From assembly GCA_024691425.1 (NCBI GenBank), contig JAILNQ010000056.1:1-64000 (forward strand): a stretch of 64,000 bases of DNA. The letters are read 5' to 3'. The notes below the pieces were generated by a model, which saw only the letters and a program-made list of their open reading frames with translations, was not told where the DNA came from and ran no database searches. Origin of the DNA: Lachnospiraceae bacterium (GTDB lineage Bacteria; Bacillota; Clostridia; Lachnospirales; Lachnospiraceae). This document shows positions 16,517 to 58,527 of this stretch, one piece after another. The first letter of the stretch is position 1. Every line of letters starts with the position of its first letter. The position numbers and the translations under genes were made by a program.

Positions 16517-17547
16517 ACAACAAGTTTAAGGCAATGAAGAGCTTCAACAGCAATACAATCCTGCTCATCATTACGATCGTTCTGTTCGTCGTCCTCTATG
16601 CAGGCGGATGTATAGCATACGGAGCAAAGGGATTCACGCACTTCCAGACATTCCTTAACATACTCATCACGAACGCCGGACTTATCTGCGTTGCCTGCGG
16701 CATGACCTGCGTAATGCTCACGGGCGGAATAGATATCTCAGTAGGCGCATTGATCGCCATGGACTGCATGATGCTCGCGGTCGGCATGTCAAAGGGCATA
16801 GGAGCTATTCCGATGGTTCTCCTCGTGCTGGTCGTAGGAGTCATATTCGGTGCAGTGCAGGGATTCCTGGTAGGATATCTGGAGATACAGCCGTTCATCG
16901 TGTCGATGGCGGGAATGTTCTTCTGCAGAGGAATGACCGCAGTAATATGTACCGATCAGGTTTCAATTACAGAGAAGATCAATGCTACGTTCTATAAGTG
17001 GGCGAACAGCAAGGTCACGATACCGTTCGGCGGATACGTTAACAACAAAGGCAAATACATGGCGCCTTATGTAAGACCTGGCGTTATAGTAGCGCTGCTT
17101 GTTCTTGTAGTCATATTCATCATGCTGAGATATACAAAATTCGGACGTTCGCTATACGCGGTCGGCGGAAGCGCACAGTCGGCAGCCATGATGGGACTTA
17201 ACGTCAAGAAGATCAAGATGGGTGCATATATGCTTTCATCAATCCTCTGCTCGATAGGCGGCGTATGTTACTGCCTGAATACGATGGCAGGCTCCGTTAC
17301 ACAGGCGCTCGGACTTGAGATGGACGCAATATCATCTGCAGTCATAGGCGGAACACTTCTTACCGGAGGTGTCGGAAACGTCATCGGCTCGTTCTTCGGA
17401 GTGCTCATTAACGGAACGATATCATCTATCGTTAAGACGAACGGAAAGCTGGCCAGCTCATGGCCTAACATCCTTACAGCCGCTCTGCTGTTCGTATTCA
17501 TCGTAATCCAGAGCATATTCGCGGCTTTAAGAGCAAGAAGAAAGTAA
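16513..17547 (+). CDS. Sugar ABC transporter permease (YjfF-like)
   Basis: TM-rich; 'GGIDISVGALIAMDC', 'SSAVIGGTLLTGGVGNVIGS'. Confidence 0.88.
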   Translation: MNNKFKAMKSFNSNTILLIITIVLFVVLYAGGCIAYGAKGFTHFQTFLNILITNAGLICVACGMTCVMLTGGIDISVGALIAMDCMMLAVGMSKGIGAIPMVLLVLVVGVIFGAVQGFLVGYLEIQPFIVSMAGMFFCRGMTAVICTDQVSITEKINATFYKWANSKVTIPFGGYVNNKGKYMAPYVRPGVIVALLVLVVIFIMLRYTKFGRSLYAVGGSAQSAAMMGLNVKKIKMGAYMLSSILCSIGGVCYCLNTMAGSVTQALGLEMDAISSAVIGGTLLTGGVGNVIGSFFGVLINGTISSIVKTNGKLASSWPNILTAALLFVFIVIQSIFAALRARRK

Positions 17548-17564
17548 GAGCATCAGAAGGCAAA

Positions 17565-18626
17565 ATGAAATCAAGGCTGGCAAATGCCATATCTATAATT
17601 CTGATAATATGCCTGTTATGTCTTCTGGCCGGGTGCAGTGCCCGGCCGGAGGGCATGGAGGGTTCCGGCGACATTAAGGATGACGATCTGATTGTCGTCG
17701 GTTTTTCGCAGGTCGGTTCCGAATCCTATTGGAGAAACGTCAATTCCGAATCAATGAAGTCTGTTTTTTCTAAAGACAACGGATACAGGCTGATATTTGA
17801 GGATGCTCAGCAGAAGCAGACGAACCAGATCACAGCGATCCGCAGCTTTATCCAGAGAGAAGTCGATTATATCGTTCTTGCGCCTGTCGTGGAGACAGGC
17901 TGGGATACCGTGCTTTCCGAAGCGAAGGAAGCAAATATTCCTGTCATTATCGTTGACAGGAGAGTGGACGTTGATGATGAAAGTCTCTTCACATGCTGGG
18001 TCGGCTCGGACTTCGAGCTCGAAGGCAAGATGGTCTGCATGTGGATGTCCAAGTTCTTCAATCTGAAAGGGATAAGCCCTGATAAGATACACGTTGCCGA
18101 TATTCAGGGGACACTCGGGAGCAGCGCTCAGCTCGGGCGTACAAAAGGCTTCCAGGAGATGGCAAAGATGTACGGCTGGGACGTGGTCGCGTATGAAGAG
18201 GGCGAATTCACGAAGAGTAAGGGCAAGGAGGCCATGTCGGTCATCCTCCGTTCTCATGATGATGTGAACGTGGTATACTGTGAGAATGACAGCGAAGCGC
18301 TCGGTGCCATCGAGGTTCTTGAAGCATCGGGCAGAAAATGCGGAAACGACATTGAAAACGGAGAAGTCATGATCGTGTCGTTCGACGGTTTCAATGAAGA
18401 GGCCAGGGCGGCAGTTGCGGCCGGAAAGATCTCGTGCATAGGAGAATGCAATCCGATGCACGGTCCGAGGGTCGAGTCGATCATAAGAAAACTTGAGGCG
18501 GGTGAACAGCCCGAGAAACTGCAGTACGTCCTCGAAGGGATTTTCTCTGACACATCGGAAATAGAAACAGTCATGATAAGCGGGCAGGAACGTGCTGTCA
18601 CGGTGATCACGGACAAGGATTTATAA
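17565..18626 (+). CDS. Second YtfQ-like substrate-binding lipoprotein
   Basis: Lipobox 'LLCLLAGCS'; 'LIVVGFSQVGSESYWRNVNSESMKSVFSKDNGYRLIF' parallels the product of 12720-13832. Confidence 0.87.
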   Translation: MKSRLANAISIILIICLLCLLAGCSARPEGMEGSGDIKDDDLIVVGFSQVGSESYWRNVNSESMKSVFSKDNGYRLIFEDAQQKQTNQITAIRSFIQREVDYIVLAPVVETGWDTVLSEAKEANIPVIIVDRRVDVDDESLFTCWVGSDFELEGKMVCMWMSKFFNLKGISPDKIHVADIQGTLGSSAQLGRTKGFQEMAKMYGWDVVAYEEGEFTKSKGKEAMSVILRSHDDVNVVYCENDSEALGAIEVLEASGRKCGNDIENGEVMIVSFDGFNEEARAAVAAGKISCIGECNPMHGPRVESIIRKLEAGEQPEKLQYVLEGIFSDTSEIETVMISGQERAVTVITDKDL

Positions 18627-18647
18627 CAGTCAGAAAGGAAAAGTGCA

Positions 18648-20240
18648 ATGGATGCAAAAAATCTCATAGCTGAAGGAAAATCATATCTCGGTATCGAATT
18701 CGGTTCAACAAGAATAAAGGGCGTGGTCATTGATGACTGCGGAACCGTGCTCGCAACTGGCGGACACTCTTGGGAGAACAGGCTCGAGGACGGCATATGG
18801 ACATACACGCTCGATGATATCTGGGGCGGCCTCAAGGACTGCTACAGCGATCTGCTTGGGGACATAAAGGATAAATACGGCATCATGCCGACAAAATTCG
18901 CATCGATAGGTTTTTCGGCGATGATGCACGGATACCTTGCATTTGATAAGGACGGCAAGCTTCTCGTTCCGTTCAGGACATGGAGAAATACGATAACAGA
19001 GGAAGCTGCGGCAGCTCTTACGAAGGAATTTTCTTTCAACATTCCTCAGAGATGGAGCATCGCGCACCTTTATCAGGCTATCCTGAACAAGGAAGAGCAT
19101 GTTAAGGATATCGATTTTGTTACTACTCTTGCAGGATACGTTCACTATATGATGACCGGGAAAAGAGTCCTCGGTGTCGGTGATGCATCCGGAATGTTCC
19201 CGATCGATTCGTCAACTAAGGATTATGACGAGACGATGGTAAAGAAGTTCGATGCTCTTGTTGCTCCGTGTGGGTTCGGATGGAATCTGCGCGGGATATT
19301 CCCGAAGTCGATCTCGGCCGGAGAGGATGCGGGAACTCTTACTGCTGAGGGAGCAAAGCTTCTTGATCCTTCAGGCAGTCTCGAGGCAGGCATTCCCGTA
19401 TGTCCTCCTGAAGGAGATGCCGGTACAGGAATGGTAGCTACGAATTCAGTCGGCCTAAGGACGGGTAATACTTCCGCGGGAACAAGCGTTTTCGCAATGG
19501 TCGTTCTTGAAAAGCCTCTCTCAAAAGTATATGAGCAGATCGACATGGTTACGACTCCCGACGGAGCCGCGGTTGCCATGGTTCACTGCAACAACTGCAC
19601 TAGCGAGATAAACGCATGGGCAAACCTCTTCAAAGAGTTCGGTGAGATGATGGGCATGAACGTGGACATGAACGAGCTGTTCACGAAACTCTACAGCAAG
19701 GCGCTTGACGGCGACAGCGACTGCGGAGGTCTTATGTCCTATAACTATATTTCAGGTGAGCCTGTAACAGGATTCGACAAGGGAGCACCGCTCTTTGTCA
19801 GAACGGCGGAATCGAAGTTCAATCTCGGAAATGTCATGAGAATGCACCTTTATTCCGCACTTGCGGCGCTCAAGTCAGGACTCGATATCCTTATCAATGA
19901 TGAAGGAGTTAAGGTTGACAAGATGTACGGTCATGGCGGATACTTTAAGACGAAAGGTGTCGGGCAGGCATTCGCGGCTGCTGCGATACATGCACCTGTT
20001 TCTGTCATGGACACGGCCGGAGAGGGCGGACCGTGGGGAATGGCGATACTTGCATCCTTTGCTGACGGAAGAAAAGATGGAGAGAATCTTGAAGATTTCC
20101 TCGCACGCAAGATTTTCGCGGATGCAAAGGGAAGCACTCTCGAGCCTTCGGCAGAAGACGAGAAGGGCTTCGACAGCTTCATGAAGACTTACATCGACGG
20201 ATTGAAGATTGAACGCGCAGCAGTGGAGGTACTTTTATAA
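18648..20240 (+). CDS. FGGY-family carbohydrate kinase (ribulokinase-like)
   Basis: '[20 protein letters not shown]', '[19 protein letters not shown]', '[42 protein letters not shown]'; adjacent to araD. Confidence 0.85.
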
Positions 20241-47632: not shown

Positions 47633-48298
47633 ATGATCATCTTATCACCTTCAATACTTGCCGCGGACTTTACGATCCTCGGGGAGCAGATGAAGAAGGC
47701 TGAGGCCGGAGGCAATGAATACTTTCACTTTGACGTTATGGACGGGATGTTCGTTCCGAACATTTCCTTCGGGCTGCCGGTGCTTTCGTCTTTAAGAAAA
47801 GCAACCGAGAAAGTGCTCGATGTCCATCTTATGATCGAGGCTCCTGAAAGATATGTTGACAGATTCATCGATGCAGGTGCCGATATCATTACGGTCCATC
47901 AGGAAGCATGCGTTCCTCTTGTTGAAACGCTGGAGAAGATACACAAAAGAGGGAAGCGTGCAGGGATTGCAGTAAAGCCGCATACAGGAGTCGGTGCGCT
48001 TGAACCGTATCTCCATCTTGCGGATATGTTCCTCATCATGACCGTGGAGCCGGGATTCGGCGGACAGAAATACATGGAAATGTGCACTGACAAGATCAGG
48101 ACGCTCCGGGGTATGCTGAATGAAAAGGGACTTGATGCCGACATTCAGGTCGATGGAGGCATTACACGTGAAAATGTCAGAACCGTTCTTGATGCGGGAG
48201 CGAACGTCATAGTAATGGGCTCTTCCGTGTTCGGCGGAGACATTACGGACAATTCGGCATATTTTACGCGCCTTTTTTCGGAGTATGACAATAAGTAA
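47633..48298 (+). CDS. rpe: Ribulose-phosphate 3-epimerase
   Basis: 'LSPSILAADFTILGEQ', 'FHFDVMDGMFVPNISFG', 'VDGGITRENVRTVLDAGANVIVMGSSVFG'. Confidence 0.95.
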   Translation: MIILSPSILAADFTILGEQMKKAEAGGNEYFHFDVMDGMFVPNISFGLPVLSSLRKATEKVLDVHLMIEAPERYVDRFIDAGADIITVHQEACVPLVETLEKIHKRGKRAGIAVKPHTGVGALEPYLHLADMFLIMTVEPGFGGQKYMEMCTDKIRTLRGMLNEKGLDADIQVDGGITRENVRTVLDAGANVIVMGSSVFGGDITDNSAYFTRLFSEYDNK

Positions 48299-48323: not shown

Positions 48324-49250
48324 ATGAAAAACTATATCAAGATAGCCCGTCCGGATCACTGGGTTAAAAACGTATTTATCATGCCCGGAATCGCGATAGC
48401 GATTCTGCTGACTGATTTTACGTTCTCGGGCGGCATGATCGTTAAGTTCATTATCGGTTTTATGGCAACATGCTTCATAGCCTCAGCGAATTATGTCATA
48501 AACGAATGGCTTGATGCCGAGTTCGACAAGTATCATCCGACCAAGAAGAACAGACCGGTTGTATCCGAGAACATGAAGCTATCACTCGTTCTTACGGAAT
48601 ATGCGGTGCTGATCGCAGCAGGGCTTATCCTGTCATATTTTGTCTGTATGCCTTTCATGTACATGGAGATATGGCTCCTTATTATGGGTGTTCTTTATAA
48701 CGTGAAGCCGATCAGGACGAAGGACATACCTTATCTTGATGTTCTTTCAGAATCGATAAACAATATGATACGGCTGCTGCTCGGATGGTTCATAATAACG
48801 CAGGAGTTTCAGCCTCCTATAAGCATACTTATCGGATACTGGTTTGCAGGCGCATTCTTAATGGCTACGAAACGGTTTGCTGAATACAGGATGATAGGAG
48901 ACCCTTCGGTAGCCGGTCTGTACAGAAAGAGCTTCGCGCATTATTCGGAAACGAGTCTTCTCGTATCATCATTCTTTTATGCTATGTGCGCAACGTTTTT
49001 CATCGGCGTGTTCATGATAAAATACAGGATGGAATACATCATCGCGATGCCGTTCGTCTTCGGGCTTTTCTGCTTCTATCTCTACATAGCGTTCAAGCCT
49101 GATTCGGCCGTACAGAAGCCGGAGAAGCTCTATAAGGAAAAATCGCTCCTCATATACATCGCAGTCCTTACGGTCATTCTGCTCGCACTGACGTTCATTG
49201 ATATACCGATGCCTTCATACTGGGTAAACCCGACACTGTTCGGAGTGTGA
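48324..49250 (+). CDS. UbiA-family prenyltransferase, decaprenyl-phosphate phosphoribosyltransferase-like
   Basis: 'IKIARPDHWVKNVFIMPG', Asp-rich motif 'NEWLDAEFDKYHPTKKNRP', 'YNVKPIRTKDIPYLDVLSESINNMIRLLLGW'. Confidence 0.82.
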   Translation: MKNYIKIARPDHWVKNVFIMPGIAIAILLTDFTFSGGMIVKFIIGFMATCFIASANYVINEWLDAEFDKYHPTKKNRPVVSENMKLSLVLTEYAVLIAAGLILSYFVCMPFMYMEIWLLIMGVLYNVKPIRTKDIPYLDVLSESINNMIRLLLGWFIITQEFQPPISILIGYWFAGAFLMATKRFAEYRMIGDPSVAGLYRKSFAHYSETSLLVSSFFYAMCATFFIGVFMIKYRMEYIIAMPFVFGLFCFYLYIAFKPDSAVQKPEKLYKEKSLLIYIAVLTVILLALTFIDIPMPSYWVNPTLFGV

Positions 49251-49891
49251 TGATGAGAAGAGCTTTAAGCGGCTATAGCATATATGTTTTTGATGTTGAC
49301 GGGACGCTTTACGATCAGCCGAAGCTACGGACGATCATGGCTATACGGCTGATGATGCATTATCTTCTTCATCCCTTTTCGGCAAAGGAGCTTTTCGCTC
49401 TTTCGCATTTCAGGAAAGTAAAGGACGGATGGACAGAAAATTCATCGGAAGATGATATCATCAAAAAGACTGCAGAAGATATGAACATGCCTGCCGACAA
49501 GGTTAAGAGCACGGTCAGAAAATGGATATATGATGAACCGCTTCTGGTCATATCAAGAACAAAGGATACAAAGCTTATCACATGGATGAATAAGCTGAGA
49601 GCCGACGGAAAGAAAGTCGTTACCCTTTCCGATTATCCTTCGGAGGATAAGCTTGAAGCATTAGGAGTTACAGCTGACAGACAGTACTCACCGGATGATG
49701 AGCGCATTGATGAACTGAAGCCGTCGCCTAAGGGACTTAAGGTGATAATGGAAGATTACAGCGCAGACCCCGCAGAGGTTCTTATGATAGGGGACCGTAT
49801 GGAAAAGGACGGAAAGTGCGCCGAGGGCGCATCTGTTGATTTTCTCATTCTTGAAAGGAAGGTCAGCAGGAGGAAGAGTTATGAAGAATAA
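49250..49891 (+). CDS. HAD-superfamily hydrolase
   Basis: 'IYVFDVDGTLYDQ', 'VVTLSDYPSEDKLEALGV', 'VLMIGDRMEKDGKCA'. Confidence 0.85.
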   Translation: MMRRALSGYSIYVFDVDGTLYDQPKLRTIMAIRLMMHYLLHPFSAKELFALSHFRKVKDGWTENSSEDDIIKKTAEDMNMPADKVKSTVRKWIYDEPLLVISRTKDTKLITWMNKLRADGKKVVTLSDYPSEDKLEALGVTADRQYSPDDERIDELKPSPKGLKVIMEDYSADPAEVLMIGDRMEKDGKCAEGASVDFLILERKVSRRKSYEE

Positions 49892-50264
49892 CATCAAGTA
49901 CATGCTGATACTGCATCTTTTTCTGGCCATTTATTCGCTTACGGGAGTGGCATCGAAGTATGCCGCCGGTGAGGAGTTTCTGTCATTCCGGTTCATTCTG
50001 TTCTATGGGATAGTTCTTTTCGGACTTTTTCTTTATGCATGCGCGTGGCAGCAGATAATAAAGCATATGCCGCTCATAAGCGCATACGCGAACAGGGGCG
50101 TGACGGTCATCTGGGGAATAATCTGGGGATACTTTCTTTTTGATGAGGCGGTCACCGTACGGAAGATAATAGGAGCCGCCATAATAATCGGCGGGATAGT
50201 TGCTATAGTTACCGCCGATGCGGCAGAGGAAGAAAAGGCAAAAGAGGCTGGAAATGAAGAGTGA
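49881..50264 (+). CDS. Half-size EamA/SMR-family membrane protein
   Basis: ~127 aa, 4 predicted TMs, C-terminal 'LFDEAVTVRKIIGAAIIIGGIVAIV'. Confidence 0.75.
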   Translation: MKNNIKYMLILHLFLAIYSLTGVASKYAAGEEFLSFRFILFYGIVLFGLFLYACAWQQIIKHMPLISAYANRGVTVIWGIIWGYFLFDEAVTVRKIIGAAIIIGGIVAIVTADAAEEEKAKEAGNEE

Positions 50265-51858
50265 GATAAAACTGCTCGACTGCACTCTCAGGGACGGGGG
50301 CTACCTTAACGACTGGGAGTTCGGAAAAAGCAATATCGTCAATATATTCGAGCGTCTTGTCAGCGCGAAGGTTGATATCATCGAGACGGGATTCCTTGAT
50401 GACAGACGCGAGTTCGATGAGAACAGAACGATCTTCCCTGATACGGCGAGCGCAGAAAAGATATACGGCAAGCTTGATAAGGGAGATTCTATGGTCGTCG
50501 GGATGATCGACTATGGAACATGCTCGGCTGATAACTTAGCGCCCTGCAGCGAAAGCTTCCTTGACGGCATAAGAGTCATCTTCAAGAAGCATAGGATGCA
50601 TGAAGCAATCGATTTCTGCAGGATGGTGAAGGAAAAGGGTTACAACGTCTTTGTTCAGGCCGTGTCGATAACTAGCTATGATGATGATGAGTTCGATGAG
50701 CTGTTAGGCCTCGTCAACGGTCTTGAACCGTATGCGTTCTCGCTGGTCGATACATACGGACTGCTCCACAAAGGACAGCTCAGGCACTACTTTGACATAG
50801 CATGCGCGGATCTTAAGCCTTCGATAGGAATCGGCTATCATGCGCATAACAACTTTCAGCTGGCATATGCTAACTGCATCGAGCTTATCGATGATCCGCC
50901 CCACGACCGTATGCTCATTGTCGACGGCACGCTTTACGGAATGGGCAAGAGCGCGGGCAATACGCCGATAGAACTGCTCGTGATGCACATGAACTCCAAT
51001 CACGGCGGGAAATATCACAACAGCCAGATATTGGAAGCTATAGAGGTGACGATCCTTGATCTTTACAGAAGGATAGGGTGGGGATACTCATTCAAGTTCT
51101 TCCTTGCCGCATCGCATGACTGCCATCCGAACTACGTGAACTATCTCATGGATACGGGCAAGCTTTCGGTCAAGTCGATAAATGAGATACTTGATTCGCT
51201 TGAAGGCGAGAAGAAGCTTCTTTACGACAGAGATTACATAAAGGATCTGTATTTCCTCTATCAGAAACAGCACTGTGCGGATTCCGATTCCGTCTCAGAT
51301 CTGATTGAGGCTCTTTCCGGCGCGGATGTGCTCATAATGGGCCCGGGAAAAAACATCTATGCCGAGAGGGAAAAGGTACTTGCATACCTTTCAAAGAAAC
51401 GCATAACTATATCGATCAATTTCATTCCCGAGGAGTATGAAGTCGACTATGTCTTCATGAGCAATGCGAAGCGCTATGTTCAGCTGAGCTCGGCGCTCAT
51501 TGAGCAGAAGGAAAAATCAAAACTCATCGCAACCTCGAACATCACGAGGACGCACGGGGAATTCGACTATACGCTGAATTACGGCGCGCTTCTTGATGAA
51601 GAGGCTCTGATGCCGGATAATCCGCTCATCATGCTTCTTCGCGTTCTTAAGAAGGCAGGGGTATCGGCTATAGGACTTGCCGGGTTTGACGGATACAGGG
51701 AAACAAGTGTTTCGAATTACGTCAATCCGAACATGGAGTATTCGTACAGCAGCAAGGAAGCCGAAAACATAAACGAGGATACGGTAAGAGGAATACGCAA
51801 GCTTGAGCTTGCCGTTGAACCGGTTTTCGTTACGGAGAGCTTATATGAGAAACTATGA
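50254..51858 (+). CDS. DRE-TIM aldolase (HMGL-like, 4-hydroxy-2-oxovalerate aldolase-like) with C-terminal extension
   Basis: 'LLDCTLRDGGYLNDWEFGK', 'DIIETGFLD', 'FSLVDTYGLL', 'GYHAHNNFQLAYAN'; extra ~190-aa C-terminal domain 'DVLIMGPGKNIYAEREKV'. Confidence 0.83.
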   Translation: MKSEIKLLDCTLRDGGYLNDWEFGKSNIVNIFERLVSAKVDIIETGFLDDRREFDENRTIFPDTASAEKIYGKLDKGDSMVVGMIDYGTCSADNLAPCSESFLDGIRVIFKKHRMHEAIDFCRMVKEKGYNVFVQAVSITSYDDDEFDELLGLVNGLEPYAFSLVDTYGLLHKGQLRHYFDIACADLKPSIGIGYHAHNNFQLAYANCIELIDDPPHDRMLIVDGTLYGMGKSAGNTPIELLVMHMNSNHGGKYHNSQILEAIEVTILDLYRRIGWGYSFKFFLAASHDCHPNYVNYLMDTGKLSVKSINEILDSLEGEKKLLYDRDYIKDLYFLYQKQHCADSDSVSDLIEALSGADVLIMGPGKNIYAEREKVLAYLSKKRITISINFIPEEYEVDYVFMSNAKRYVQLSSALIEQKEKSKLIATSNITRTHGEFDYTLNYGALLDEEALMPDNPLIMLLRVLKKAGVSAIGLAGFDGYRETSVSNYVNPNMEYSYSSKEAENINEDTVRGIRKLELAVEPVFVTESLYEKL

Positions 51859-52498
51859 TGCAGTGATCTTTGACCTTGACGGAACGCTTCTTGATACGTC
51901 AGAAGGCGTGTGTGCATCTGTAGCGCATGCGATAGAGACGCTGTGTCTCGAACCGCTCGGCCAGGATGTTCTGAAGACCTTCATCGGACCGCCGATACAG
52001 AAGTCATTTGCACGCATATATAATATGACACCTGAAGAAGCAGCCGGTGCGGCCGCGATCTTCCGCGACACATATAAGGATAAGGATCTTCTGCGGGCCG
52101 TGCCGTATGAAGGGATAGTTGATACGATAAAGGCGCTCTCTAAGGCCGGGATAAAGACCGCGGTCGCTACATACAAAAGGCAGGATTATACGATGCGGCT
52201 CCTTACGCATTTCGGATTTGACAAGATATGCGACAGCATATGCGGCTCTGATGCCGAAGGAAAGCTGACCAAAAAGGATATAATCGTGAACGCTATGCAT
52301 TCTGTCGGAGTTACTGACAAGTCGCGCGCGCTTATGGTCGGGGACAGCGATAATGATGCAATAGGTGCGGCCGAGATCGGGATGCCGTTTCTCGGAGTAA
52401 CATACGGATTCGGCTTTCCGGACAGTACATCGCTTGATGATTTCGAACCGATAGGGGCAGCATCTTCCCCTGAAGATATACTAAGGTATGTGCTATGA
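51845..52498 (+). CDS. HAD-superfamily hydrolase (Gph-like)
   Basis: 'AVIFDLDGTLLDTSEGV', 'FIGPPIQKSFARIY', 'ALMVGDSDNDAIGAAEIGMPFLGVTYGFG'. Confidence 0.88.
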   Translation: MRNYDAVIFDLDGTLLDTSEGVCASVAHAIETLCLEPLGQDVLKTFIGPPIQKSFARIYNMTPEEAAGAAAIFRDTYKDKDLLRAVPYEGIVDTIKALSKAGIKTAVATYKRQDYTMRLLTHFGFDKICDSICGSDAEGKLTKKDIIVNAMHSVGVTDKSRALMVGDSDNDAIGAAEIGMPFLGVTYGFGFPDSTSLDDFEPIGAASSPEDILRYVL

Positions 52499-54312
52499 AG
52501 ATAAAGGTTTCTGAATACATTGCGGATTTTTTCGTGAAGATGGGCGTTAAAGATGTCTTCATGATAACGGGCGGCGGCGCGATGCACCTTAATGATGCGT
52601 TAGGGCATAAGAGCGAGCTTGTCTGTACTTATGATCATCATGAACAGGCATGCGCCATCGCGGCCGAGGGCTATGCAAGGCTCACCGGGAAAATCGCACC
52701 GGTCTGCGTAACGAGCGGCCCCGGAGGAACTAATGCGATCACCGGCGTGGTAGGAGCATGGCAGGATTCCATACCGATGTTCGTGATCTCCGGACAGGTG
52801 AAATGCGAAACGACCACATGGTCGACTCTGGTTCCCCTGCGTCAGCTCGGTGACCAGGAATTCCAGATAATCGACTCGGTTAAGAACATGACGAAATATG
52901 CCGTCATGATCACCGATAAGAACACGATAAGGTATCATCTCGAAAAGGCATGGTTCCTGTGCAATAACGGCCGCAAAGGCCCTGTATGGCTCGATATCCC
53001 ACTTGACATCCAGGCAGCGATCGTTGAAACAGATGAGCTTCCCGGATATGAAGAGGATGATACCGAAAATCCCGTATACGACAGAAATGTCACAGAGCGG
53101 ATTTTCGAAAAGCTGAAAGAGTCCAGGCGTCCAGTGATCCTTGCGGGAACGGGAATAAACGTTGCAGGGGCGCGGGAGGAATTCATAAACTGTGCTGAAG
53201 CGCTCGGTATTCCTGTGCTAACGGCATGGAACGCTCATGATGTCATGCCTACGGATCATCCGCTGTTCTGCGGAAAGCCCGGAACGGTAGGGCTTCGCGG
53301 CGGCAACTTCATAGCTCAGAGTGCCGACCTTCTTCTCGTGCTCGGCTGCAGGATGAACATCAGGATCATCAGCTACAACAAGCATGAGTTTGCAAAGGAC
53401 GCATTCAAGATAGCAGTCGATATAGATGAGAACGAGCTTAAGAAGCCTACAGTAAAAATCGACATGCCGGTACATGCCGACGTACGTTCTGTCATGTCCG
53501 ACATAGCAAGATATGCAAAAGAGAACGGATATGAAGTCGGCGATGTACACTCTGCATGGCTTCGGCGTGCACGTGATGTCAACGGAAGATATCCGGCCGT
53601 CATTGAAAGCTACAGGCATACGGAAAAACTCAATCCCTATGTATTTCTTGAAGCGATGTTCGGCTGTCTCGAGGAAGGCGATGTTACCGTTACCGGAAAC
53701 GGCGGGGCATGCGTTATGGGCTTCCAGACGGCTGTCATAAAAAAGGGACAGAGAATTTTCACCAATTCAGGCTGCGCGGCTATGGGCTACGGCTTCCCTG
53801 CGGCGCTCGGTGCGGCAGTTGCAAGAAGGACGTTTGAAAACGGCAGGCGCGTTATCTGTCTTGACGGTGACGGAAGCTTCATGATGAACCTTCAGGAGCT
53901 TCAGACCGTAAAATACAACAGACTGAACTTAAAGATAATCATTCTCAGCAACAACGGTTACCATTCGATAAGACAGACACAGAGCAATCTGTTCGCCGGA
54001 CGGCCGCTGATCGGTGTGTGTGACGGTAACGGTGTTTCATTCCCGGATTTCTCGAAAGTAGCTCATGCTTTTGATATTCCGTATCTTCTCGTGGACAGCG
54101 AGGAAAATATTGAAAAGAAGATAAAAGAAGCGTTAGAATGCCCTGGACCGGTAATGATAGAGGCTGCGGTCGACGAAGGTCAGAACTTCGAGCCGAAGCT
54201 GTCATCGAAAGTCCACGAGGACGGCACGATAACATCTGCGGCAAACGATGATATGTTCCCGTTCCTTCCGAAGGAAGAATACGAGGCAGTAAAAGCTTAT
54301 CTGAAAGGATGA
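52495..54312 (+). CDS. Thiamine-pyrophosphate-dependent enzyme, acetolactate-synthase-like
   Basis: 'MKIKVSEYIADFFVKMGVKDVFMITGGGAMHLNDALG', 'CVTSGPGGTNAITGVVGAWQDSIPMFVISGQ', ThDP motif 'ICLDGDGSFMMNLQELQTVKYNRLNLKIIILSNNGY'. Confidence 0.9.
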   Translation: MKIKVSEYIADFFVKMGVKDVFMITGGGAMHLNDALGHKSELVCTYDHHEQACAIAAEGYARLTGKIAPVCVTSGPGGTNAITGVVGAWQDSIPMFVISGQVKCETTTWSTLVPLRQLGDQEFQIIDSVKNMTKYAVMITDKNTIRYHLEKAWFLCNNGRKGPVWLDIPLDIQAAIVETDELPGYEEDDTENPVYDRNVTERIFEKLKESRRPVILAGTGINVAGAREEFINCAEALGIPVLTAWNAHDVMPTDHPLFCGKPGTVGLRGGNFIAQSADLLLVLGCRMNIRIISYNKHEFAKDAFKIAVDIDENELKKPTVKIDMPVHADVRSVMSDIARYAKENGYEVGDVHSAWLRRARDVNGRYPAVIESYRHTEKLNPYVFLEAMFGCLEEGDVTVTGNGGACVMGFQTAVIKKGQRIFTNSGCAAMGYGFPAALGAAVARRTFENGRRVICLDGDGSFMMNLQELQTVKYNRLNLKIIILSNNGYHSIRQTQSNLFAGRPLIGVCDGNGVSFPDFSKVAHAFDIPYLLVDSEENIEKKIKEALECPGPVMIEAAVDEGQNFEPKLSSKVHEDGTITSAANDDMFPFLPKEEYEAVKAYLKG

Positions 54313-54315
54313 AAT

Positions 54316-55251
54316 ATGAGCAGGATATCAATAATCATTCCCGTATACTACAATGCAGACACACTCATGCTTCTTTATGAGGACATGAAGGCGAAGATTC
54401 TGCCGGATCTCGGGGATTACGAAATAGTCATGGTTGATGACGGCTCCGGTGACGATTCGTGGAAAGTCATGAACGATATCAGGGACATGGATGAGAACGT
54501 AAAGCTCGTCCGGCTGTCACGCAATTTCGGTGAGCATGCCGCGCTCCTTGCGGGTTTTGCTAACTGCTCGGGCGACTGCGCGGTCACGAAGCAGGCGGAC
54601 CTTCAGGAAGATTCGGAGCTCATAGTACGGCTTTACGACAAATGGAAAGATGGCAACAAGGTTGTTCTCGCGGTACGAGAGGAGAGGGATGAGCCTGCAG
54701 TCAAGAAGTTCTTTGCGAACCTCTATTATTCAATAGTGCGCAAGACGATAGACAAGAAAATGCCGAAGGGCGGGTTCGACTGCTATCTGCTCGACCGTCA
54801 GGCGATAGAAGTGCTCCTTCGCCTCGACGAGAAAAATTCATCGCTTTCGCTTCAGGTTCTGTGGATGGGCTTTAAGTCTGACAACGTCTATTTCCACAGA
54901 AAGGACAGGGAAGTAGGAGAATCCCGCTGGACTTTCTCTAAGAAATTCAAGCTCGTGCTCGATTCTATGATGAGCTTTTCATATTTCCCGATCAAGTTCA
55001 TGTCGGGATTCGGAGTCGTGATGGCGATTCTTGCATTCATCTGGATAATAGAAGTCCTTATAGAGTTCTTCGTAACAGGAACGCCTGTAAGGGGCTGGTC
55101 GACTCTGATGTGCCTCGTGCTTTTCTCAACAGGCATCATTCTTCTCATGCTCGGCGTGCTCGGAGAGTATCTGTGGAGAACGCTCGATGCAACGAGAAAC
55201 AGGCCGGTGTACATTGTTGACTGCGTTAAAGAGGCGGGTAAGAAGGAATGA
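54316..55251 (+). CDS. Family 2 glycosyltransferase with C-terminal TMs (polyprenyl-phosphate sugar synthase, GtrB/ArnC-like)
   Basis: 'RISIIIPVYYNADTL', 'YEIVMVDDGSGDDSW', 'VRLSRNFGEHAALLAGF', 'KQADLQEDSELI'; two C-terminal TMs. Confidence 0.88.
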   Translation: MSRISIIIPVYYNADTLMLLYEDMKAKILPDLGDYEIVMVDDGSGDDSWKVMNDIRDMDENVKLVRLSRNFGEHAALLAGFANCSGDCAVTKQADLQEDSELIVRLYDKWKDGNKVVLAVREERDEPAVKKFFANLYYSIVRKTIDKKMPKGGFDCYLLDRQAIEVLLRLDEKNSSLSLQVLWMGFKSDNVYFHRKDREVGESRWTFSKKFKLVLDSMMSFSYFPIKFMSGFGVVMAILAFIWIIEVLIEFFVTGTPVRGWSTLMCLVLFSTGIILLMLGVLGEYLWRTLDATRNRPVYIVDCVKEAGKKE

Positions 55252-55586
55252 TAACGACCTATATATTCATTTTCCTGTTTTCGTCTTTCATTTCCGCGCT
55301 TTCGCAGATCCTGCTTAAGACAGCGGCAAAAAGACAGTACAGCTCCTGGATATATGAGTATCTCAACATCAGGGTAATATGCGCTTACGGAATATTCTTC
55401 CTTGCATCCCTTATCACGGTGTACTGCTATAAAGTTATACCTCTTTCCATAGGCGCGATGCTCGAAGCAAGCGGATACGTGTTCGTGACCGTACTCGGAA
55501 GAGTGATACTGAAGGAAAAAGTTTCAAGGCAGAAAATCATAGGCATGGCGCTTGTAATACTCGGTGTCATAGTCATCGCAGTCTGA
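55248..55586 (+). CDS. Half-size SMR/EamA-like membrane protein
   Basis: 112 aa, 4 predicted TMs, 'VIPLSIGAMLEASGYVFVTVLGRVILKEKVSRQKIIGMALVILGVIVIAV'. Confidence 0.8.
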   Translation: MITTYIFIFLFSSFISALSQILLKTAAKRQYSSWIYEYLNIRVICAYGIFFLASLITVYCYKVIPLSIGAMLEASGYVFVTVLGRVILKEKVSRQKIIGMALVILGVIVIAV

Positions 55587-55591
55587 AAGAT

Positions 55592-57391
55592 ATGATTAAG
55601 TTTCTGAAAAAGAACTATGTATATATTTGTTTTCTCATATGCTTCTTATTGCTCCTTTGGCGCTCGTTCTTAGGCTTCTGCTGGACGGACGAGAGCTTTT
55701 ACGTTTCGACTGCGGACAGGTTCTTCAGAGGAGATGTTCCCCTTGTCGATGAATGGTACAGAACTCAGCTTTCATCGCTTATCATGCTTCCTTTTTATGC
55801 GCTGTATGTTCTGATCACGGGCGGAAATGCCGGGATCATTCTTTACTTCCGTATTCTCTATCTCGTTTTCTCAGCTTCCGTCTCGGCGGTATATTTCATA
55901 GTGCTGAAAAAGGAGCGCCCCGTATATATTGCAGGTGCTGCAGCTCTTTTCGTCATGTGTTATGCGCATCTTAACAATGCCACATTCTCATATTACATGC
56001 TGTCGGAGCTTTTCCTAGCGCTCGCTCTGATACTCATATATGACTGCAGAAGGTCAGAAAACATGGCAGTGCTTGTGTGCTCCGGAGTATTCATCGCCCT
56101 CTCGGTGCTCAGCATGCCCGCATTTGCCATCGGTTACGTCATCGTGCTGATCCTTGCAGCGGCAGTGCTTGTCGTATCCTTTATCAGATCGGTTCCTGAA
56201 AAGATAAGGAACATGATAGACGGTGCGTTCATCAGAAAAGCACTTCTTTTCACGTTCATAGGAATTCTCATTCCAGCTTTTATTTTTGCTGCGTACATGA
56301 TGAGCCGTGCGGATTTTTCCCGTCTGTTTGAAACGCTCCCGTATGCGCTCGTTGACAGGGAACATAGCAACACATTCGGATATTACATAAGAAAGCCGCA
56401 CAGGAGCCTTATGGAAGTATACGGTTTGTGGACATACTGTTCGTACATTCTCATTGCCATATGTGCAATTTTCGGAAGATGGCTGAAAAAACGTCCTTTC
56501 TGCTATTTCGCCGTTCTTGCCGATATTGTGATATTTGCAGCGATGGCCATACGCTCGTTCGGGCATACCGGATACATACAGGCTGCGTTCTTTATGTTCA
56601 TGATCCCGGTGTTTTTCATATCCGAGAAGAAGGATAGCGCGTTGTTTTCGCTCATGGCCGTACCGTCTGTTCTCGTCGCGCTCATATACTGTTTCGCTTC
56701 GAGCGATTTTCTGTATGTAATGGCGATAGGCTTTGCGATAAGTTCGGGTGCGGGTGTCTGCGTGCTCTATGATTTTGCTGAAGGAAATCTTGCATCATCT
56801 GACGGAAATACGGCGCTGAAGACGGCGGTGAAGGCGGGGATTGTTATTGCATGCGCATACAGTCTCTGCATCACTTTCTATCTCAGGATCAAGAACGTGT
56901 ACAGGGATGCGCCGATATGGAGGCTCAGCTGTGCCATACAAGAGGGTGTTGCAAAAGGTCTTTATACAACCAAAGAGCACCTTGAGCTTTATAATGATGT
57001 CTGCTCGGTCATTGATGAATACTTAAGCGATACTGAGCATTTTGAGATCATCAGCGGCAATCCCGACGGAAACGTTCTTTTCTCGAAAATCCTTCCGTGG
57101 GGATATGCGGCCTCCTCTCTCGACTGCGGCTATCCGACGACATGGAGGGCAACGGCCTACGACGAGGAGCAGCTGGAAAAATACTACGGCATTAACACTG
57201 ATGCCGTCCCTGATGTTATAATAGTGCTCGACAGCGTGTACGGTTCATATGATGCCGCGGGGGATACGGAGGATGATCATATCCCGAATCTCGATGAGAT
57301 GAGCGGTTACTGGAAAGATTACATAGCTAAGAACGGATTTACCGAGACGCCTGTAAAGTGCGGAAAGCTTTACTGCAGACCGAAGAAATAG
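55592..57391 (+). CDS. Polytopic membrane protein, GT-C/ArnT-like glycosyltransferase candidate
   Basis: ~600 aa, many TMs, first periplasmic-loop acidic motif 'FCWTDESFYVSTADRFFRGDVPLVDEWYRTQ'. Confidence 0.65.
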   Translation: MIKFLKKNYVYICFLICFLLLLWRSFLGFCWTDESFYVSTADRFFRGDVPLVDEWYRTQLSSLIMLPFYALYVLITGGNAGIILYFRILYLVFSASVSAVYFIVLKKERPVYIAGAAALFVMCYAHLNNATFSYYMLSELFLALALILIYDCRRSENMAVLVCSGVFIALSVLSMPAFAIGYVIVLILAAAVLVVSFIRSVPEKIRNMIDGAFIRKALLFTFIGILIPAFIFAAYMMSRADFSRLFETLPYALVDREHSNTFGYYIRKPHRSLMEVYGLWTYCSYILIAICAIFGRWLKKRPFCYFAVLADIVIFAAMAIRSFGHTGYIQAAFFMFMIPVFFISEKKDSALFSLMAVPSVLVALIYCFASSDFLYVMAIGFAISSGAGVCVLYDFAEGNLASSDGNTALKTAVKAGIVIACAYSLCITFYLRIKNVYRDAPIWRLSCAIQEGVAKGLYTTKEHLELYNDVCSVIDEYLSDTEHFEIISGNPDGNVLFSKILPWGYAASSLDCGYPTTWRATAYDEEQLEKYYGINTDAVPDVIIVLDSVYGSYDAAGDTEDDHIPNLDEMSGYWKDYIAKNGFTETPVKCGKLYCRPKK

Positions 57392-57426
57392 CTGATACAG
57401 CGTAATAAAGGACGGAAGGAAAAGAA

Positions 57427-58527
57427 ATGATACCTGTAAATGAACTTGTAAGAGGATTCAGGCTTTACCAGAAAGAATATGAGGATAAGGCGCTCGAGGT
57501 ATTGAGAAGCGGATGGTATGTTCTCGGAAAGGAAGTATCATCATTTGAAGAAGAGTTCGCAACCGCACTCGGAAAAGGATGCTCGTGTGCGGGAGTTGAT
57601 AACGGGCTCGATGCGATCACGCTCGGACTTGAGGCCGCGGGGATAAAAGAGGGCGACGAAGTTATCGTGCAGGCAAACGGATACATTGCCACGATGCTCG
57701 GAATAATGCAGTGCGGGGCAGTGCCGGTTTTCGTTGAGCCGGATGAATACTATCAGCTTGATGCCGACAGGATAGAGGATGCGATTACGCCTGCAACGAA
57801 GGCAGTACTGGTCACGCATCTTTACGGTCAGGCGACGCGCATGGATGCTGTAACTGCTATATGCAAAAAGCATGATCTTGCTCTCTTCGAGGACTGCGCA
57901 CAGTCACACTTTGCACCATACAAAGGTGTCAATACGGGACTTTTCGGCAAGGCTTCTTTCTTCAGTTTTTATCCGACGAAAAATCTCGGGGCGTTCGGCG
58001 ACGGGGGCGCCGTTGTATCGACGGATCCCGCGATCATAGAAAAGGTCAAGGTGCTCAGGAACTACGGCAGCGACAGGAGATATCACAACATAGAGATAGC
58101 CGGCAATATGAGGCTAGATGAGATACAGGCGGGACTTCTTAGGGTAAGGCTTTCACATATGGATGAGCTTCTTGCGAACAGGCGTCACATCGCCTCCCGG
58201 TATCTTTCCGAAATAAAAAACCCGAAGATCACTCTGCCGCTTATAGCCGATGGCTGCGATCATACATGGTATCAGTTCATTGTCCGTGCGGATGATCAGA
58301 GCGCATTCATGTCATTCCTCAAGTCTGAAGGAGTTGCAACTGATATTTCCTGGCAGGTGCCGCCGTACCTTCAGCCGTGCATGAAGGAGAAGTTCGGATA
58401 TAAGAGCGGTGATTTTCCCGTAACGGAAGAGCTGTGCGCGCATATCGTTACGCTTCCCATGATGGAGTTCATGGAAGAGGATGAGATAACGAAAGTCATC
58501 GATGCGGTAAACCGTTATAAGTCATAG
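57427..58527 (+). CDS. DegT/DnrJ/EryC1/StrS-family PLP-dependent sugar aminotransferase
   Basis: 'GVDNGLDAITLGLEAAGIKEGDEVIVQANGYIATMLGI', 'ALFEDCAQSHFA', 'FSFYPTKNLGAFGDGGAVVSTD', 'RLDEIQAGLLRVRL'. Confidence 0.92.
   Translation: MIPVNELVRGFRLYQKEYEDKALEVLRSGWYVLGKEVSSFEEEFATALGKGCSCAGVDNGLDAITLGLEAAGIKEGDEVIVQANGYIATMLGIMQCGAVPVFVEPDEYYQLDADRIEDAITPATKAVLVTHLYGQATRMDAVTAICKKHDLALFEDCAQSHFAPYKGVNTGLFGKASFFSFYPTKNLGAFGDGGAVVSTDPAIIEKVKVLRNYGSDRRYHNIEIAGNMRLDEIQAGLLRVRLSHMDELLANRRHIASRYLSEIKNPKITLPLIADGCDHTWYQFIVRADDQSAFMSFLKSEGVATDISWQVPPYLQPCMKEKFGYKSGDFPVTEELCAHIVTLPMMEFMEEDEITKVIDAVNRYKS

Follow-up and report, generated by a model that had tools for sequence, protein, structure and literature searches.

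Does a single bacterial operon that carries enzymes for sugar building, lipid loading, flipping and transfer serve one unusual sugar or several? The question is raised by ten genes on the + strand at positions 48324-58527 of contig JAILNQ010000056.1 (assembly GCA_024691425.1). They lie within the window, i.e., the whole 64,000-nucleotide stretch analysed here, which is part of the 2.56-Mb draft genome of a rumen Lachnospiraceae bacterium. A first-pass annotation had read these genes as one series, in which an unusual sugar is made by carbon-carbon bond chemistry, aminated, loaded onto a polyprenyl carrier and transferred outside the membrane. We favour, with a probability of roughly 0.55, a composite operon for the extracytoplasmic decoration of a cell-surface polymer, joining a putative undecaprenyl-phosphate-ribose module (A), a module for the loading, flipping and transfer of an amino sugar (B), and a donor module for a branched sugar (C) whose acceptor pathway lies elsewhere in the genome. 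Gene presence and order, conservation, module partners and kinship of family or fold were read from the genomes; reactions were assigned from gene families and gene context.

A ten-gene operon at a constant site

The order and families given by the first-pass annotation hold. The open reading frames (ORFs) match Pfam, NCBIfam and PDB entries of the kinds claimed, and the GT-C protein was placed by its fold:

48324..49250, + strand: UbiA, putative polyprenyl-phosphate 5-phosphoribosyltransferase, DPPRS/PPPRS-like (PF01040, 4.6e-25; PDB relative 8j8j, Rv3806c)
49247..49891, + strand: HADa, HAD phosphatase, likely removing the 5'-phosphate from polyprenyl-P-ribose-5-P (PF00702/PF13419; DVDGT intact)
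49881..50264, + strand: SMRa, probable first half of a heterodimeric SMR flippase, ArnE/F-like (EamA, ArnE/EbrB matches below cut-off)
50254..51858, + strand: ALD, HMGL/4-hydroxy-2-oxo-acid aldolase-like protein with a C-terminal MptE/SteA-like domain, the latter a weak match (PF00682, 8.8e-23)
51845..52498, + strand: HADb, HAD phosphatase of the putative branched-sugar triad (PF13419, 3e-32)
52495..54312, + strand: THDP, YerE-like thiamin diphosphate (ThDP) enzyme, predicted carboligase (three TPP domains; PDB 8rph, JanthE, 5.3e-107)
54316..55251, + strand: GT2, GtrB/ArnC-like undecaprenyl-phosphate glycosyltransferase, predicted for a dTDP-3-amino-3,6-dideoxyhexose (PDB GtrB sll0501, 1.6e-56; ArnC, 1e-38)
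55248..55586, + strand: SMRb, probable second half of the SMR flippase (EamA/EbrA/ArnE matches; paralogue of SMRa)
55592..57391, + strand: GTC, predicted glycosyltransferase of GT-C fold with a C-terminal soluble domain, outside any sequence family (AlphaFold, Foldseek)
57427..58527, + strand: DegT, QdtB/FdtB-like sugar 3-aminotransferase by similarity (PDB QdtB 3frk, 3.8e-97)

Because adjacent ORFs share 4-14 bp or have gaps of 3-35 bp between them, the ten genes likely form a single transcript. The rpe gene ends at 48298, 25 bp upstream of the UbiA gene, so that transcription may start further upstream than UbiA. For two genes, better start sites than those of the longest ORFs are found at 49881 (ATG, SMRa) and at 51845 (ATG, HADb), and the start of the aldolase lies near 50254. 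A promoter scan of the window gave 22 matches against 21.8 in shuffled sequences, i.e., not above the shuffled level, and a terminator scan gave 21 against 14.7, with none directly downstream of DegT.

A scan of GTDB genomes with UbiA as the query returned 74 loci (labelled L...), and 11 of them carry the operon, which together with the window makes 12 genomes of rumen Lachnospiraceae. The site is constant in all 12, downstream of the genes for a PASTA kinase (prkC), RsgA (rsgA) and Rpe (rpe). Recurrence of the gene order in 11 other genomes places the arrangement beyond chance, and the block is thus conserved among relatives. All ten genes are held by L052, L055, L056, L058, L060, L081 and L121, the last being cut at UbiA by a contig end. 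In L057, a YfhO-family protein (17293-19302) takes the place of GTC in an otherwise intact operon; L054 (genome G193) has no DegT at the site, L061 has neither GTC nor DegT there, and the contig of L053 ends after THDP. Every one of the 12 operon genomes has a DegT orthologue, which two of them carry at a different locus. Sister genomes hold the UbiA-HAD pair without the other eight genes (L062, L063, L064, L074 and L119), at the same site wherever the upstream flank is readable; the eight genes were therefore probably added later to an older UbiA-HADa pair, an order of events that we infer from this distribution.

A predicted amino-sugar module for loading, flipping and transfer

GT2 is of the GtrB/ArnC kind, with a DLQED sequence at the DxQxD motif and two C-terminal transmembrane segments. 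Its orthologues (66-72%) occur in 20 loci outside the genus, of which 19 also have DegT and 18 have FdtA, these genes almost always being neighbours, and the nearest structure to DegT is that of QdtB (3frk, 3.8e-97). As GT2 and DegT go with FdtA in relatives, both appear to track a route to dTDP-3-amino-3,6-dideoxyhexose. One locus, L216, holds what looks like an intact, compact version of the same system, in the order WbqC-SMRa-SMRb-YfhO-RmlD-DegT-FdtA-GT2. Of the 12 operon genomes themselves, 9 carry FdtA, located near RfbG, and 11 carry RmlB; where gene order was read, the neighbours of FdtA include a hexapeptide acyltransferase and no DegT. Two other identities for DegT were considered and rejected: RfbH, which is a separate gene, and ArnB, the nearest relative being QdtB. 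Beside RfbG and FdtA, several operon genomes carry a paralogue of the chaperonin Cpn60 (L150, 8774-10396, and the same place in L191, L192 and L193).

SMRa (127 aa) and SMRb (112 aa) are of SMR/EamA size and are distant paralogues of each other. Elsewhere, their genes adjoin each other in L097, in L216 and in about 19 of another 20 loci, frequently in the company of GT2, DegT or YfhO genes, and because they travel as adjacent pairs we reject two independent flippases and regard SMRa and SMRb as probably one heterodimer. GTC is a membrane protein of 599 aa whose sequence has no match in Pfam, NCBIfam or PDB. Its AlphaFold model (pLDDT 77.8, from a ten-sequence alignment) retrieves with Foldseek the oligosaccharyltransferases STT3/PglB, AftA and ArnT (E 2.2e-06, probability 1.0, TM-score 0.37-0.45), and a DE motif near residue 33 is invariant. 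The model thus supports a GT-C fold, for which transfer activity is predicted. A GT2 with C-terminal transmembrane segments and DxQxD, an SMR-size pair and a GT-C fold are the three components of Gtr/Arn systems, and the extracytoplasmic transfer proposed by the first-pass annotation remains the expected outcome on grounds of sequence and model.

Among the alternatives, the one that survives best concerns the acceptor. The products could decorate glycoproteins, such as S-layer, pilin or other secreted proteins, and not a cell-wall polymer. The best Foldseek matches of GTC, the oligosaccharyltransferases STT3/PglB, point that way, as does the top NCBIfam model of GT2, the Pgf-system glycosyltransferase PgfS of streptococci. 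The PgfS score is far below cut-off, however, and the Foldseek TM-scores are just 0.37-0.45, while one genome has YfhO in place of GTC, from the family that adds sugars to the lipoteichoic or wall teichoic acid of Bacillus, Staphylococcus and Listeria (PMC8035078). We regard a protein acceptor as possible but unlikely.

A putative branched-sugar donor module

The aldolase, HADb and THDP form a triad. The best PDB match of THDP is the YerE-like enzyme JanthE (8rph, 5.3e-107), well above acetohydroxyacid synthase, and its motifs are HHE and GDG...NN, the GDG being canonical where JanthE has CDG. Identification of THDP as an acetolactate synthase was rejected, since JanthE is the closer relative and the score stays below the equivalog cut-offs (334 of 538 bits). 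ALD matches PDB 3dxi and DmpG by sequence and by fold, with LRDG and the HxH(N) metal site invariant. Its C-terminal domain (51274-51855) is conserved in all long members and shows weak profile matches to MptE and SteA (E 0.069 and 1.1), whose domains are thiamin pyrophosphokinase-like; in a fold search with ALD only the barrel was matched among the matches listed, and none covered the C-terminal domain. The YerE-like enzyme ErwE prefers 4-hydroxy-2-oxo acids (PMC12247030). As ErwE needs such acids and a DmpG-like aldolase makes them, ALD is predicted to supply the donor of THDP. The carbon-carbon bond chemistry toward an unusual sugar assigned earlier to these two genes is retained as a prediction from a DmpG-like aldolase and a YerE-like partner.

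The company kept by the triad points to a CDP-linked sugar. A long ALD (at least 48% identity) occurs in 19 further loci of Lachnospiraceae, where THDP accompanies it in 18, HADb in 14 and RfbF, RfbG or RfbH in 11, these Rfb names being assigned to representatives by curated NCBIfam cut-offs. Among 299 genomes, RfbH is present in 22 of the 24 with ALD and in 77 of the 275 without (Fisher p=7e-10, an optimistic value because the species compared are related). A YerF-like short-chain dehydrogenase/reductase (SDR) accompanies the RfbH loci that have a ThDP gene, and nearly all RfbH loci without one lack it (exception, L186). The genes for the keto-deoxysugar acceptor, of the CDP-glucose type, are thus linked in relatives and stand in trans in most operon genomes: RfbF, SDR and RfbH lie together without the triad in L151, L153, L155 and L160, SDR and RfbH without the triad in L157, L158 and L194 (RfbF not seen or gene order altered), and RfbG at yet another locus. 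In a tree, the operon ThDP enzymes form one clade nested within that of the triad enzymes linked to RfbF, RfbG and RfbH, and the SDRs of the operon genomes group among the ThDP-linked SDRs, with weak resolution. We therefore consider the triad a putative YerE-like branched-sugar cassette that tracks a CDP-branched sugar by a predicted carboligation. In one operon genome (G306), a second ThDP gene, which is divergent, accompanies RfbF, RfbH and RfbG-like genes (L161, 3480-13438).

These associations bear on the series proposed by the first-pass annotation, in which one unusual sugar would be assembled by the aldolase and THDP, receive its amino group from DegT, and then be loaded by GT2, flipped by the SMR proteins and transferred by GTC. 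All the genes do share one operon conserved in 12 genomes, L042, L200 and L201 have homologues of GTC next to the triad or to its ThDP gene, and the SMR pair neighbours RfbF/RfbH-ThDP genes in L239 and RfbF/RfbH in L244. However, the GT2 orthologues occur with DegT and FdtA in loci with no triad nearby, triad loci as a rule lack GT2 orthologues and a QdtB-like DegT, and both modules coexist in few genomes (5 of the 24 triad genomes, two of them from the operon's own genus). With GT2 and DegT following a dTDP-amino sugar and the triad a CDP-branched sugar, action of the whole set on one sugar is unlikely.

A putative lipid-linked ribose module

The top NCBIfam model of UbiA is decaprenyl-P phosphoribosyltransferase, with a score below the equivalog cut-off, and a sequence search of PDB finds 8j8j, the mycobacterial DPPRS Rv3806c, as its sole relative. 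DPPRS/PPPRS enzymes are characterised by N-D-x2-D-x3-D in loop II and by R/E in loop IV. The first motif is kept at its N, third and fourth positions; loop II reads N-E-x2-D-x3-D-x2-H in 69 of 69 homologues, with D replaced by E in every one, and a KR(F/Y)AE motif is conserved in most of them. A HADa-like gene lies at most two genes from UbiA in 47 of 68 loci, with other HADs in part of the remainder, and DxDGT is intact in both HADa and HADb. A UbiA domain of this type together with a HAD domain makes polyprenyl-P-ribofuranose (Kelly et al. 2024; PMC11127046). UbiA and HADa resemble such a polyprenyl-phosphate-ribose synthase and phosphatase, in line with the earlier suggestion of a DPPR-synthase-like pair. 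By homology, UbiA would use phosphoribosyl pyrophosphate, adding a third sugar to the amino sugar and the branched sugar. An arabinose product is not favoured, as no DprE1/2-type epimerase is found among the ten genes.

Several UbiA loci hold further candidate enzymes. B12-binding radical SAM protein genes lie between UbiA and HADa in L067 (10941-12392) and in the UbiA locus of L066 (16943-18412), and genes of about 483 aa, a length like that of the radical SAM gene, occupy the same place in L068, L069, L071, L073 and L078-L080 (Lachnospiraceae); this position suggests a further modification of the lipid-linked pentose. In L064 (11654-13519), the genes after UbiA-HADa encode an IspD/TarI-like cytidylyltransferase and a TarJ-like zinc dehydrogenase, a possible CDP-ribitol pair. 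In L097 (10001-19136), UbiA occurs with SMRa and SMRb as direct neighbours, with proteins resembling an FAD amine oxidase and a uridine kinase, and with an MBOAT acyltransferase.

Could GTC then use the product of UbiA, making the operon chiefly a ribofuranosylation system like that of Citrobacter, with the remaining genes serving other loci? UbiA and HADa head the operon, the arabinosyltransferase AftA is among the Foldseek relatives of GTC, and L097 has UbiA and the SMR pair at a single locus. Yet UbiA-HADa stands alone at the site in L062-L064 and L119, with neither SMR nor GT-C, comparison with the operon proteins revealed no UbiA-like gene in the remaining GTC loci read (L042, L195-L204), and GT2 directly precedes SMRb-GTC, all of which makes this use rather improbable. 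Still more doubtful is the recruitment of THDP from CDP sugars to branch the amino sugar at its keto intermediate, or else the lipid-linked pentose, such that a single operon would build, load, flip and transfer one branched amino sugar.

Proposed functions of the composite operon

The three-module reading leads to the following model. In module A, UbiA and HADa would provide lipid-linked ribose. In module B, DegT would make a dTDP-3-amino-3,6-dideoxyhexose, with the help in trans of FdtA and RmlA/RmlB; GT2 would load this sugar onto undecaprenyl phosphate, the SMRa/SMRb heterodimer would flip the lipid-linked amino sugar, and the GT-C protein would transfer it to a polymer or protein outside the cell. 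In module C, ALD would couple pyruvate with an aldehyde, probably phosphorylated, HADb would dephosphorylate the resulting 4-hydroxy-2-oxo acid, and THDP would decarboxylate this acid and attach its acyl group at the ketone of CDP-3,6-dideoxy-4-ketoglucose, itself made by RfbF/RfbG/RfbH in trans, after which a YerF-like SDR, also in trans, would reduce the branch.

Several points weigh against this model. RfbG is below cut-off in 3 of the 12 operon genomes and RfbH is lacking in 3 of 12 (both in two of them), these being incomplete drafts, and DegT is off-site in two. UbiA has Asn-Glu where characterised synthases have Asn-Asp, a residue required for full activity; altering D248 of the enzyme of Kelly et al. 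2024 lowers activity, and Glu occupies that position here (PMC11127046). GTC homologues stand beside branched-sugar genes (L042, L200 and L201) as well as GT2-DegT (L195), and one GT-C protein faces two or three lipid-linked sugars, any of which could be its donor. Finally, the reactions and sugars of each module are predicted from gene families and context.

If the model holds, rumen bacteria that are abundant and mostly uncultured are predicted to display rare sugars on their surface. YerE-like enzymes would likely obtain their long donors through a 4-hydroxy-2-oxo-acid aldolase and a phosphatase, a supply step for which the consulted parts of the review (PMC12247030) name no enzymes. Module B would represent a widespread Gram-positive counterpart of ArnC/ArnEF/ArnT for 3-amino-3,6-dideoxyhexoses, marked by FdtA, DegT, GT2 and an SMR pair that is obligate, and GTC a predicted GT-C family outside any sequence model.

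Comparison with known systems

The first-pass annotation knew of no description of this gene combination, and none was found in the literature searched (aldolase and YerE clusters, FdtA/QdtB sugars, Lachnospiraceae GT-C systems; preprints and most subscription papers were outside its scope). Each module, however, is of a described kind; what varies is that the modules are joined, that four genes stand between the two SMR genes, and that an aldolase and a HAD phosphatase would supply a YerE-like enzyme.

Module A shares a UbiA-type phosphoribosyltransferase and a HAD phosphatase with the Citrobacter ORF15/14/12 pentofuranose system (PMC11127046) and with the mycobacterial DPPRS route. Here, UbiA and HAD are separate genes, an NE motif replaces ND, the operon has no MATE flippase or epimerase, and use of this donor by the GT-C protein is conjecture. 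Module C shares a YerE-like ThDP enzyme with the YerE/ErwE/JanthE pathways (PMC12247030), together with RfbF/G/H and a YerF-like reductase in relatives; it differs in the dedicated aldolase with an extra domain and the HAD phosphatase that adjoin THDP, and in that the CDP-sugar genes of this genus sit at other loci.

In the case of module B, DegT is closest to QdtB, and FdtA is present in most genomes, as in the QdtA-QdtB (FdtA-FdtB) pathways to dTDP-3-amino-3,6-dideoxyhexoses, but FdtA is unlinked here and the orthologous GT2 suggests loading onto undecaprenyl phosphate. The ArnB-ArnC-ArnE/F-ArnT aminoarabinose system likewise combines a DegT aminotransferase, an undecaprenyl-phosphate GT2, two SMR flippase halves and a GT-C transferase. 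The operon is not an Arn system proper: the NCBIfam models of ArnB, ArnC and ArnE score far below cut-off, and no ArnA or ArnD lies within it, nor any gene for formylation or deformylation. In addition, its DegT is QdtB-like with an FdtA partner (3-amination of a hexose), its GT-C has no detectable sequence similarity to ArnT, its SMR genes are separated by four genes, and its host is Gram-positive. The logic of GT2, small flippase and GT-C is also that of CsbB-GtcA-YfhO and other Gram-positive three-component systems (PMC8035078), and YfhO itself takes the place of the GT-C protein in L057 and L216. Compared with these systems, the SMR pair replaces the GtrA-type GtcA, and an amino-deoxysugar would replace GlcNAc, Glc or Gal.

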